A stretch of 48,190 bases of DNA. It comes from Atribacterota bacterium. GTDB lineage: Bacteria; Atribacterota; Phoenicimicrobiia; Phoenicimicrobiales; Stramentimicrobiaceae. Below, piece after piece: positions 24,458 through 28,787 of the stretch (positions within the stretch are counted from its first letter, which is position 1; each line of letters begins with the position of its first letter). The DNA is taken from positions 1 to 48,190 of the forward strand of contig JAQUNC010000014.1 in the NCBI GenBank assembly GCA_028717805.1. The letters are read 5' to 3'. Position numbers and translations under genes: made by a program. The notes under the pieces were generated by a model. That model saw nothing but the letters and a program-made list of their open reading frames with translations, ran no database searches and was not told where the DNA came from.

Positions 24458-25285
24458 TTAAAGGTAAAGCCTGGTAAGTTCGGTAGTTAAATAGGAAAAA
24501 GCCTCATCAACTGTATCACATAATTGAAATAATTTTAGATCCGATTTGCTGATAGTACCATATTTTATCATAGCATCGAAGTTAATGACTTGTTTCCAAT
24601 ATTCTGAGCCATAGATAACAATAGGTAGCTGTTTTTCTAATTTTTTAGTTTGGAGTAGAGTCAGTACTTCAAATAATTCATCCATTGTACCAAAACCACC
24701 TGGGAAAATAACCAATCCCTTTGCTAAATAAACAAACCAGAATTTGCGCATAAAGAAATAATGAAATTCAAAATTAAGTTCAGGAGTAATATATTGATTT
24801 GGGACTTGTTCCATAGGGATACTGATATTCAGACCAATTGATTTACCACCAGCCTCCTTGGCACCTTTATTAGCTGCTTCCATCATTCCCAATCCTCCTC
24901 CTGAACAAACTACAAAGCGAGAATTTGAATTCAGTGATTTAGACCAGGCAGTCAAGCGTTTGGCTAATTCTACAGCATCCTGATAATATCTGGCAATAAA
25001 AACCTGATTTTTGGCATTTTCTAATTTTTCCAATAAATGTTTTTTATTTTGTCTACCTATAGCGTTAATCTTTTCTCCTATTTCTTTAAGATGCCTTATC
25101 GCTACAATAGGAGGCTTGGTTCGTGCGGAACCAAAAAAAACAATTGTATCATTAATTTTATATTTGCGAAAACGTTGCATGGGCTCCAGTAATTCTGCTA
25201 AGATTCGAATAACCCTGGCATCACCGCTATTGATAAAATCTATATTTTTATAGGCTTTTTCTGCTTTTCTTAATTTTTTATTCAT
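24458..25285 (-). CDS. LOG-family Rossmann protein (nucleotide phosphoribohydrolase-like)
   Basis: Member of the LOG/TIGR00730 family, which hydrolyses nucleoside 5'-monophosphates (AMP or N6-modified forms) to base and ribose 5-phosphate. The two signature loops are intact: SGGGLGMMEAANKGA (128-142) and PGGFGTMDELFE (195-206) with the catalytic Glu203 and an Arg in FMRKFW. At 275 residues it is longer than the usual 180-200 because of about 45 N-terminal residues before VFFGSAR and an insert of about 50 between that strand and VVCSGGG, as in the larger bacterial paralogues. The start lacks a strong ribosome-binding site. Monocistronic. Confidence 0.82.
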   Translation of the reverse strand: MNKKLRKAEKAYKNIDFINSGDARVIRILAELLEPMQRFRKYKINDTIVFFGSARTKPPIVAIRHLKEIGEKINAIGRQNKKHLLEKLENAKNQVFIARYYQDAVELAKRLTAWSKSLNSNSRFVVCSGGGLGMMEAANKGAKEAGGKSIGLNISIPMEQVPNQYITPELNFEFHYFFMRKFWFVYLAKGLVIFPGGFGTMDELFEVLTLLQTKKLEKQLPIVIYGSEYWKQVINFDAMIKYGTISKSDLKLFQLCDTVDEAFSYLTTELTRLYL

Positions 25286-25576: not shown

Positions 25577-25605
25577 TTGATTAAGTCTAAGGCAAATATT
25601 ATAAT
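25577..25605 (+). promoter_or_regulatory. Sigma-70-type promoter of the tup operon
   Basis: TTGATT (25577-25582) and a perfect TATAAT (25600-25605) are separated by 17 bases. Transcription would begin near 25612, some 30 bases before the riboswitch and 226 before tupA. Confidence 0.65.
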
Positions 25606-25643
25606 AAATTAAGTAAAAGCTGATTATTGATTAAAAATACATA

Positions 25644-25740
25644 ACTCCGAGCTATTACACCTAATACTGAGGTAATGGTGAATAGCCAAAAGGGAATAAG
25701 CGGAAACGCCTATTCCTCCCGTGTTTGGAAAGGAGGTGGA
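25644..25740 (+). ncRNA. Moco/tungsten-cofactor-type riboswitch upstream of tupABC
   Basis: The leader reads as a Moco RNA motif. ACTCCGAG opens it. GCTATT (25651-25656) pairs with AATAGC (25681-25686) and continues as CACC/GGTG (25658-25661 with 25677-25680). GCCAAAAGGGAA leads into a stem GGAATA (25693-25698) with TATTCC (25711-25716), an A-C mismatch and GCG/CGC capped by a GAAA tetraloop (25703-25706). CCTCC (25715-25719) can pair with GGAGG (25732-25736). GGTGAATAGCC, GGAAACG, TTCCTCCCG and GGAGGTGG are the conserved words of the class as I remember it. An intrinsic terminator and tungstate importer genes follow, so tungsten or molybdenum cofactor is the probable ligand. Confidence 0.82.
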
Positions 25741-25760
25741 TATCAGGTGGAATTAATTAG

Positions 25761-25790
25761 CCAACACCAGACACAGTGTTGGTTTTTTAT
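25761..25790 (+). terminator. Intrinsic terminator in the tup leader (riboswitch expression platform)
   Basis: CCAACAC (25761-25767) pairs perfectly with GTGTTGG (25776-25782), followed by TTTTTTAT. It sits after the riboswitch and 48 bases before tupA. CCAACAC could instead pair with GTGTTTGG at 25721-25728 within the riboswitch, giving an exclusive alternative, as expected for termination control. Confidence 0.8.
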
Positions 25791-25837
25791 TATCTACGTG
25801 TCGCTTATACAATAATTTTGAAAGGAAATAGATTTTT

Positions 25838-26662
25838 ATGAAGAGATATTTTTCTATAATGGTAAGTATAATTATGGTAATTATGATAACTTTAACTTTT
25901 GTAGTTTCTGCTACACCGATAAACATAAAATTAGCGACAACAACCAGTACGGAAAATTCAGGATTACTTGGAGTTTTACTACCTCCTTTTGAAGAGAAAT
26001 ACAATATAAAAGTAGAAGTAATTGCAGTTGGAACTGGTGCTGCAATTAAGTTGGGAGAAAATGGAGATGTGGATGTTGTCCTGGTACATGCCAGAGCGGC
26101 GGAAGATAAGATGGTGGAAGATGGTTATGGAGTAAATCGCAGGGATGTTATGCATAATGACTTTATTATTGTAGGACCGGAAGATGATCCTGTAGGTATA
26201 AAAGATGAAAAAGACGCAGCTTTAGCTCTTACCAGAATTGCTAATTCAGAAAAAGAAACATTTTTTGTTTCCCGTGGTGACAATTCCGGAACTCATATAA
26301 AAGAATTAGAGTTATGGCAAAGTGCAGGTATGGAACCAAAGGGTGAGTGGTATCTGGAAATTGGACAGGGTATGGAAGCTGCCTTATTAGTAGCAAATGA
26401 AAGACAAGGATATGTACTTTCTGACCGGGGGACTTATTTAGCAACTAGAGACAAGATAAAGCTGGTTATTCTTTCAGAAGGCGATCCCCGCCTCTTTAAT
26501 CCCTATGGAATTATCGCTGTTAATCCAGCAGTACATCCCCATGTTAAATATATGGAAGCCATGCAGCTTATTGCTTGGATGACCTCTATTGAAGGACAAA
26601 AAATAGTCGGGGAATTCAAAAAACACGGTGAGGTGTTATTTTTCCCGGATGCTATCAAATAA
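25838..26662 (+). CDS. tupA: Tungstate-binding protein TupA
   Basis: Periplasmic oxyanion-binding protein of a high-affinity tungstate importer, 274 residues. Signal peptide: hydrophobic 6-24, cleavage around VSATP. The oxyanion-site motif TTTSTENSGLL is at 34-44, and FFVSRGDNSGTHIKELELW is a second TupA hallmark that separates it from molybdate-binding ModA. AAAGGAA lies upstream of the ATG. It is the first gene of tupABC, under a Moco-type riboswitch with terminator. Tungsten would serve enzymes such as aldehyde:ferredoxin oxidoreductases or formate dehydrogenase, none of which is in this window. Confidence 0.92.
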   Translation: MKRYFSIMVSIIMVIMITLTFVVSATPINIKLATTTSTENSGLLGVLLPPFEEKYNIKVEVIAVGTGAAIKLGENGDVDVVLVHARAAEDKMVEDGYGVNRRDVMHNDFIIVGPEDDPVGIKDEKDAALALTRIANSEKETFFVSRGDNSGTHIKELELWQSAGMEPKGEWYLEIGQGMEAALLVANERQGYVLSDRGTYLATRDKIKLVILSEGDPRLFNPYGIIAVNPAVHPHVKYMEAMQLIAWMTSIEGQKIVGEFKKHGEVLFFPDAIK

Positions 26663-26690: not shown

Positions 26691-26740
26691 ATTATTTAAT
26701 AGTATTGGAATTTTTCTAAATTCCGATACTATTAAATAAT
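26691..26740 (+). other. 23-bp hairpin between tupA and tupB
   Basis: Arms 26691-26713 and 26718-26740 pair over 23 positions with a single G-T wobble and a four-base loop; ATTAC/GTAAT extends it after a bulge. It begins 28 bases after the tupA stop. No T-run follows (TTGTAATAAGG). Placement matches the other three binding-protein hairpins. Confidence 0.7.
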
Positions 26741-27060: not shown

Positions 27061-27753
27061 TTGAGCTTTATTTTTGAGGGATTACAGAAAGCTTTTCAAT
27101 TAATTTTCTCTTTGAATAAGGAAGTTTTCATCATTGTATTATTTTCTTTAAAAGTATCAGGTATTGCTATTCTCTTAGCTTCTTTAACCGGTGTACCACT
27201 TGGTTTTTTAATTGGAGTAAAAAAATTTCGCTGGAAGAAATTTACAGTTATACTGCTGAATAATGCCCTGGCAATACCTACGGTGGTAGTTGGCTTAATT
27301 ATATATTCCTTTATTTCTCGGGTAGGTCCGTTAGGTTATTTTGGGCTGTTGTATACCCCGACTGCCGTAATTATCGGACAATTTTTTTTAGCAACGCCAA
27401 TTATTATTGCTTTAACCCATTCTGCTATACAGGGAATTGACACTAAAGTAAGAAATACTGCTTTAACTCTGGGTTCAACTGAAATACAAGCAGCCTGGGC
27501 AGTGGTAAAAGAAGGTCGTTATACCATTATGTCAGCAATTATTACTGGGTTTGGCAGAATTATAGCTGAAGTAGGAGCAGCTATGATGTTAGGAGGCAAC
27601 ATTAAAGGATCTACTAGAACCATGACTACAGCCATTTCCCTGGAAACTTCTAAAGGTGAGTTTGGTTTTGGTATAGCTCTAGGAATCATATTGTTATTAA
27701 TTTCTTTGAGTATAAATGTATTTCTTAGTTATATACAAAGTAAAAAGTTATAA
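27061..27753 (+). CDS. tupB: Tungstate ABC transporter permease TupB
   Basis: Membrane subunit of the tungstate importer, 230 residues with about five hydrophobic segments. The conserved TupB stretch GFGRIIAEVGAAMMLGGNIKG and the following TRTMTTAISLETSKGEF are present; the EAA-type coupling loop is around NTALTLGSTEIQAAW. It uses a TTG start at 27061 with AGAGAGGT seven bases upstream; no ATG gives a full-length protein. TupC starts 14 bases after its stop. The gene is 398 bases from tupA, further than usual. Confidence 0.9.
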   Translation: MSFIFEGLQKAFQLIFSLNKEVFIIVLFSLKVSGIAILLASLTGVPLGFLIGVKKFRWKKFTVILLNNALAIPTVVVGLIIYSFISRVGPLGYFGLLYTPTAVIIGQFFLATPIIIALTHSAIQGIDTKVRNTALTLGSTEIQAAWAVVKEGRYTIMSAIITGFGRIIAEVGAAMMLGGNIKGSTRTMTTAISLETSKGEFGFGIALGIILLLISLSINVFLSYIQSKKL

Positions 27754-27767
27754 TAAGGTTAATTGGA

Positions 27768-28787
27768 ATGAATAACTACGTTTTACTTAGAATTGAAAAT
27801 CTGAAAAAAATCTATGATAAGCGCCTTGTATTGAATATTTCATCTTTTGCATTTGAACAGGGGAAAATTTATGCCATTGTTGGTCCCAATGGTTCTGGTA
27901 AAACTACCCTGATTAATATTTTAAGTTTGCTTGATATCCCGGATAACGGGAAAATATTTTTTAAGGAAAAAGAAATAAAAAATATTTCTAAAAATGACCT
28001 ATTGAAAATCAGGAGACAGATTACTCTAGTTCATCAAAAGCCATTTTTATTTCAAACCACAGTCTATAATAATATAGCTTATGGCTTAAAGATAAGAGGG
28101 ATTTCTTATTTAGAACAGGAAAAAAGAATTAAAGAAGTTCTTAAAATTGTAGGACTATCCGGTTTTGAGCGAAGAGGATCGAATCAACTTTCAGGAGGAG
28201 AAGCACAGCGGGTGGTTATTGCCCGGGCTTTAGCAATAGAGCCAGATATACTTTTTTTAGATGAGCCAACTGCAAATATAGACAAGAGATATATTGAAGC
28301 AGTAGAAAGAATCATAAAAAAAATTAATCGTGAACTGAATACTACTGTTATCTTTACTACTCATGACCTTTCTCAAGCATATCGGTTGGCTGATACAATA
28401 ATATCATTACTGGAAGGTAGGATTATTCAACATATTCCGGAAAATATCTTTAGAGGCAAAATAATACAGGAAAATGGATTGCAATGGTGTAAAATAACAG
28501 AGGAAATAAAATTTGCCCTGGTGAGTAAAAGAAGAGGTTATGTTTATATTTACATTGCTCCCAGTGATATAATTTTATCCTATAATCAATTTGCCTCCAG
28601 TGCTCAAAATTCGTTTATAGGAAAAGTAATTAAAATTTCTGAACATAACCATCTTATCAGATTAGTAATAGATATAGGCGTAGAATTAGTTAGCGTTATC
28701 ACCCGTGATTCATTTCTAAAAATGAACATAAATATAAGCAGCAATATTTGCCTCACCTTTAAAGCCTCTGCTGTAAAATGTTTTTGA
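27768..28787 (+). CDS. tupC: Tungstate ABC transporter ATPase TupC with C-terminal TOBE/Mop domain
   Basis: ATP-binding subunit, 339 residues. Walker A GPNGSGKTT at 39-47, Q-loop VHQKPF near 88-93, signature LSGGE at 141-145, Walker B ILFLDE at 161-166, and the switch His in TTHDLS. The ABC core ends near residue 215. The last 70 residues (NSFIGKVIKISEHNHLIRLV onward, ending in TFKASAVKCF) look like a TOBE/Mop oxyanion-binding domain as in ModC, which can mediate feedback inhibition of transport by the imported oxyanion. Several TupC proteins lack this domain. It follows tupB by 14 bases. Confidence 0.88.
   Translation: MNNYVLLRIENLKKIYDKRLVLNISSFAFEQGKIYAIVGPNGSGKTTLINILSLLDIPDNGKIFFKEKEIKNISKNDLLKIRRQITLVHQKPFLFQTTVYNNIAYGLKIRGISYLEQEKRIKEVLKIVGLSGFERRGSNQLSGGEAQRVVIARALAIEPDILFLDEPTANIDKRYIEAVERIIKKINRELNTTVIFTTHDLSQAYRLADTIISLLEGRIIQHIPENIFRGKIIQENGLQWCKITEEIKFALVSKRRGYVYIYIAPSDIILSYNQFASSAQNSFIGKVIKISEHNHLIRLVIDIGVELVSVITRDSFLKMNINISSNICLTFKASAVKCF

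Follow-up and report, generated by a model that had tools for sequence, protein, structure and literature searches.

Moco RNAs (RF01055) are built from P1, P2, a P4 hairpin with a GAAA tetraloop and P5, and are found as leaders before operons for transport of the cofactor metal (PMC2408646). Owing to the instability of the cofactor, its direct binding was undemonstrated in 2008 (PMC2408646). In the 2008 survey, 58 of all 176 Moco RNAs lacked P3, and Regulski et al. proposed that these RNAs sense the tungsten cofactor, Tuco (PMC2408646). In that study most links of the P3-lacking RNAs were to enzymes that use Tuco or to the synthesis of MPT, and tupA and tupB served as host markers; a terminator-type platform was noted for some Moco RNAs, and terminators were described with no anti-terminator (PMC2408646). 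The Moco RNA of E. coli moaA contains P3 and was proposed to act translationally via P1, but a 2025 re-analysis of RNA-seq data suggested termination for it too (PMC12121620).

The locus studied here lies in a window (the whole stretch of DNA analysed) of 48,190 nucleotides from an Atribacterota bacterium. The earlier note had read it as a promoter, a Moco leader, an intrinsic terminator and tupABC, in this order, and the covariance search, the hairpin and the gene products all bear out that arrangement (Table 1). A cmscan search against Rfam returned RF01055 at 76.5 bits (E 7.4e-17; gathering cut-off 36 bits) over the full length of the model, 1–135, and this was the sole above-cut-off Rfam match within the whole window. 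In the Rfam alignment the core of the class is present: CUCCGAG, the CCUAA...AUGG receptor, AGGG...GAAA...CCUCCC and UUUGGAAAGGAG. The P3 columns of the model are deleted, and 5 nt stand in their place. The downstream genes, which resemble tupABC, belong to the metal transport functions expected of the class alongside synthesis or use of Moco or Tuco. Judged by sequence and context, the element is a true Moco riboswitch of the P3-lacking subtype, and the operon behind it is of the tungstate type. It shares the aptamer class, and the expectation of repression by cofactor, with the E. coli moaA RNA; unlike that RNA, it carries an intrinsic terminator, and no gene begins at its P1. Like the P3-lacking subtype of 2008 it occurs in a tungsten-using host with a tup operon, but it differs from the main links of that study in directly preceding tupABC.

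Table 1. Features of the tupABC leader and operon (window coordinates)
Feature	Position	Strand	Evidence
Promoter-like -35/-10, TTGATT-17-TATAAT	25577..25605	+	Consensus match, relatives' leaders
Moco RNA aptamer (RF01055), P3-lacking subtype	25633..25751	+	cmscan
P1 5' strand CUCC, partner GGAG 25732-25735	25645..25648	+	Rfam alignment
CAAAA linker, P2 to P4, at the place of P3	25687..25691	+	Alignment, P3 comparison
P4 hairpin, GAAA tetraloop 25703-25706	25692..25717	+	Rfam alignment
GUGUUUGG, P5/junction region; putative strand common to aptamer and anti-terminator	25721..25728	+	Alignment, lineage comparison, energies
P1 3' strand GGAG, also Shine-Dalgarno-like word	25732..25735	+	Rfam alignment
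Intrinsic terminator hairpin AGCCAACAC-CAGACACA-GTGTTGGTT, U tract from 25783	25759..25784	+	Terminator scan
Terminator 5' arm CCAACAC, weaker anti-terminator partner	25761..25767	+	Energies, clade comparison
CCAGACAC, last arm base and loop; best predicted partner of 25721-25728	25767..25774	+	Energies, lineage comparison
tupA-like tungstate-binding protein	25838..26662	+	NF041772 233 bits, 3lr1 structure
tupB-like permease	27061..27753	+	NF041773 229 bits
tupC/wtpC-like ATPase with TOBE domain	27768..28787	+	Profile matches

The promoter is weak when taken alone: it scores 10/12, and consensus matches in this AT-rich stretch are not above chance (4 found, 3.6 expected). However, TTG(A/C)TT or a close variant, followed by a 17–18-nt spacer and TATAAT, stands 4–36 nt upstream of the aptamer in 15 of the 15 tup-linked Atribacterota leaders checked. 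The terminator consists of a 9-bp stem and a loop of 8, followed by the U tract. Two terminator-like sites were found where 0.2 was expected, the second being the reverse strand of P4, and the core stem pairs of the terminator are kept in full (100%) across 16 tup leaders.

None of the three proteins reaches its NCBIfam Tup equivalog cut-off. TupA, which has no other NCBIfam match, and TupB score below their cut-offs of 400 and 320, respectively, and the ATPase scores higher with the WtpC model (249, cut-off 440) than with TupC (147, cut-off 400). The solved structures nearest to the tupA product include the tungstate-binding TupA proteins 3lr1 (nearest) and 5my5. In D. alaskensis TupA, the residues TTTS, His59, Arg118, Thr124 and Asp170 have been placed at the oxyanion site (PMC5517513); equivalents, paired by motif and order rather than by residue-level alignment to 5my5, are kept in the window protein as TTTS (T34–S37), H84, R146 (in FVSRGDNSG), T152 and D196, and are invariant in six homologues. 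These genes agree with the earlier claim of tungstate rather than molybdate transport. The closest tupA relatives in named genomes come from Candidatus Atribacteria metagenome-assembled genomes. The gap between tupA and tupB is unusually long (398 bp) and holds a near-perfect 23-bp inverted repeat with a 4-nt loop (26691–26740), possibly an inserted element.

We compared the presence of P3 across tup loci. In a first genome survey P3 was absent from 19 of 19 tup-linked RNAs, and RNAs linked to wtpABC, or above cut-off and linked to AOR, also lacked it. Among named genomes, which share a few Atribacterota species with the first survey, 80 tup loci included 33 with a Moco RNA in or near them; for two of these (L115 and L131) the RNA lies 1.5–1.9 kb upstream of tupA and its target gene is uncertain. 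P3 was absent from 29 of the 33 RNAs and present in four, all from Spirochaetes (L106, L135, L140 and L143). The TupA of L106 reads TTSS in place of TTTS. Set against the 58 of 176 of the 2008 survey, these counts show a strong association between P3 absence and tup, which is not absolute; P3 is no strict metal label, because the four Spirochaete tup loci and a WtpA-like operon in the genome that carries the window RNA have it. The Moco RNA class and the proposal linking P3-lacking RNAs to Tuco are already published; new here are the putative switching strand (P5) and a count of how often the RNA accompanies tup.

Of the RF01055 matches in the host genome, five in all, one falls below cut-off. 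Two RNAs lack P3: the window RNA and one (L004) before an operon with moeA, moeA-PBP, moaA, moaC-MOSC and a mogA-like gene. The three with P3 precede a group A6 [FeFe] hydrogenase (L001); a wtpB-like gene, an Oxidored_molyb protein and wtpA (L002); and, in the case of a weak match (L005), WtpA-like, FecCD-type ABC and MOT1 molybdate transporter genes. PF01314, the aldehyde ferredoxin oxidoreductase family, has nine matches in the genome, of which one is a fragment, and PF00384 (Molybdopterin family) has two. Characterised members of the aldehyde ferredoxin oxidoreductase family typically carry tungsten, and the nine matches together with tupABC indicate, at the level of gene content, that the host has a tungsten-cofactor metabolism. 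At L006 (5158–5292, minus strand), a P3-containing Moco RNA precedes the gene for an NADH-dependent [FeFe] hydrogenase of group A6, with homologues in five genomes (G001, G002, G003, G004 and G006; the G003 contig stops short of the hydrogenase gene). In G001–G003 this RNA is divergent from a P3-lacking RNA that precedes a wtp-type operon. Such a hydrogenase is not known to use Moco.

The earlier note had proposed that CCAACAC, in the upstream arm of the terminator, pairs with GUGUUUGG inside the aptamer, so that aptamer folding and termination compete. That pairing exists, with a bulged U, but GUGUUUGG pairs better with CCAGACAC, the last base of the arm and the loop, in eight contiguous pairs of which one is G-U. 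The predicted energies of the full leader are −44.8 kcal/mol with the loop pairing, −36.4 kcal/mol with the CCAACAC pairing and −49.8 kcal/mol in the terminator form. CCAACAC, which is also nearly invariant within the clade, was rejected as the main anti-terminator partner. The complementarity of the window RNA alone barely beats chance (p about 0.02–0.045 against dinucleotide shuffles), so a comparative test was needed.

We therefore compared P5 and terminators across lineages. The discovery set comprised the terminators of 50 RNAs from 18 lineages; they were trimmed by hand, an effect that the swap design mitigates and does not remove. Pairing of each P5 with its own terminator averaged 15.0 kcal/mol, against 12.7 kcal/mol for swapped terminators, and none of 20,000 permutations was as high as the own pairing. 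When a 16-nt segment was slid along the aptamer, the signal was confined to CCUCCCGUGUUUGGAAAGG (z up to 5.4); over the rest of the aptamer z stayed close to 0 for the most part and did not exceed about 2. A fresh set of 73 further RNAs from other phyla, with automatic terminator calls and three or four genomes apiece for several phyla, gave 12 new lineages. Against dinucleotide-shuffled P5, Fisher p was 2e-5 in the discovery set and 6.6e-5 in the fresh set, whereas a control segment gave 0.96 and 0.14, respectively. The swap test was not significant in the 12 fresh lineages alone (p 0.16–0.35), probably because P5 is nearly identical among them; about half of their terminators lack complementarity. 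Pooled over all 30 terminator-bearing lineages it gave p 1e-4 (control segment 0.38), an effect that stems mainly from the 18 discovery lineages.

P5 and terminator vary in step between lineages, as in the pairs CCCAUUA:UAAUGGG and CCCAUC:GAUGGG (wtp), and the pairs CCCAUCCUC:GAGGAUGGG and CCCAUGA:UCAUGGG (L090). L090, from a Poribacteria metagenome-assembled genome, has tandem Moco RNAs before tupA (2280–2405 and 2559–2683), each with its own terminator matching its own P5 variant. Pairing between terminator loop and aptamer is 97% preserved across the 16 tup leaders, versus about 40% when the loop is slid, and the two most variable loop positions alternate between A and G opposite U; two-sided compensatory pair changes were not found inside this clade. 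The proposed competition between aptamer and terminator thus draws support from the 30-lineage comparison, with its partner corrected to the terminator loop and arm end. Overall there is good comparative support for P5 as the putative anti-terminator strand of many terminator-type Moco RNAs, though not of every one.

Taken together, the window RNA, a P3-lacking Moco-class riboswitch, probably senses Tuco, its most likely ligand, and switches tupABC off by competition between P5 and the terminator. Binding of this ligand, the molybdopterin cofactor in its tungsten form, would stabilise the aptamer; the folded aptamer would occupy GUGUUUGG and leave CCAACACCAGACACA available for the terminator, and transcription would be halted before tupABC, so that an ample supply of cofactor would shut import down. 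In the ligand-free RNA, GUGUUUGG would pair with CCAGACAC/CCAACAC while polymerase passes, blocking the terminator and allowing tupABC to be transcribed. Because the terminator is predicted to be the more stable form by 5 kcal/mol even in the ligand-free RNA, such a switch would need kinetic control.

The same switch might instead respond to Moco, or to Moco and Tuco alike, with P3 absence as a lineage feature and no metal filter. The P3-containing Spirochaete tup RNAs fit that reading, as do the general moeA/moaA/moaC operon that a P3-lacking RNA governs in the host genome and the observation that a P3 deletion in the E. coli RNA did no more than break regulation (PMC2408646). We nevertheless find this ligand assignment possible but on the unlikely side: P3 is missing from most RNA-bearing tup loci and from all over-cut-off AOR-linked RNAs of the first survey, and where the same genomes have RNAs with P3, these stand before other operons, one with MOT1.

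The other alternatives concern the switching step. With a hidden Shine-Dalgarno word in P1, a ribosome on a short leader ORF could block the terminator in the ligand-free RNA; an AUG does stand 4–9 nt past the P1 GGAG in 10 of 30 lineages (1–6 of 30 for shifted windows), and the related f2 tup leaders show AUG-NNN-stop after GGAGG. The window RNA, however, offers only a GTG ORF (25747–25815), its nearest relatives (G008, G009 and G006) have no start codon there, and tup leaders have P5 complementarity instead. A leader ORF was rejected as the mechanism of this RNA, and ribosome-assisted attenuation is quite improbable for it. It is more improbable still that the terminator acts constitutively or serves transcription from upstream, with P5 complementarity arising by chance. 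The modest single-sequence p value would permit that, but it sits poorly with the lineage-level matching of P5 and terminator, with the order of elements in the Atribacterota tup leaders examined, where the terminator follows a conserved unit of promoter and aptamer and precedes tupA, and with the upstream context, where no co-directional gene ends nearby and the neighbouring ORF (24458–25285) lies on the other strand.

Beyond the window RNA, an AUG 4–9 nt past the P1 Shine-Dalgarno word opens a short ORF in several leaders that show no P5 complementarity, and in several cases this ORF ends at or inside the terminator arm. Five P3-containing RNAs before wtpB-Oxidored_molyb-wtpA (L007 in G000:C15 and its homologues L044, L071, L023 and L018) are followed, directly after the P1 Shine-Dalgarno word, by short ORFs (at about 4562–4594 in L007) such as MKLKIYSSTF, MKPVIYSSVF, MKLITEAVLF and MKLITKAVLF, of 10 codons in four leaders and 13 in the fifth, ending inside the terminator 5' arm; MKLKIYSSTF-stop belongs to the wtpB operon of the host genome. 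No pairing of these five terminators with P5 was found, and ribosome-coupled attenuation is possible there. In leaders of one small phylum (L169, L036/L073 and L058), the stop of each five-codon ORF (MFLLN, MFSPS and MDISI) falls precisely on base one or two of the terminator hairpin. Riboswitch-controlled uORFs have a precedent in the B12 switches of M. tuberculosis (PMC11260477). A clean lineage split between P5-type and leader-ORF-type RNAs seemed convincing by eye, but with a fixed rule the inverse link to P5 complementarity was not significant (7/16 versus 3/14, p 0.26), and the split is no more than a lead. We offer only as a rather doubtful suggestion that terminator-type Moco/Tuco RNAs use two interchangeable platforms. 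In one, the type of the window RNA, the conserved P5 strand of the aptamer would double as anti-terminator, and each lineage's terminator would evolve to fit it. In the other, the aptamer would hide the Shine-Dalgarno word of a short ORF whose stop lies at or inside the terminator arm, and a ribosome would block termination.

The host genome supplies matched reporters for the question, posed since 2008, whether P3-lacking Moco RNAs sense Tuco: its RNAs without P3 precede tup and moeA/moaA, and those with P3 stand before other operons, one of which includes MOT1. The comparison across lineages further yields a concrete switching model, in which the P5 strand would compete for the terminator loop, that single mutations can address.
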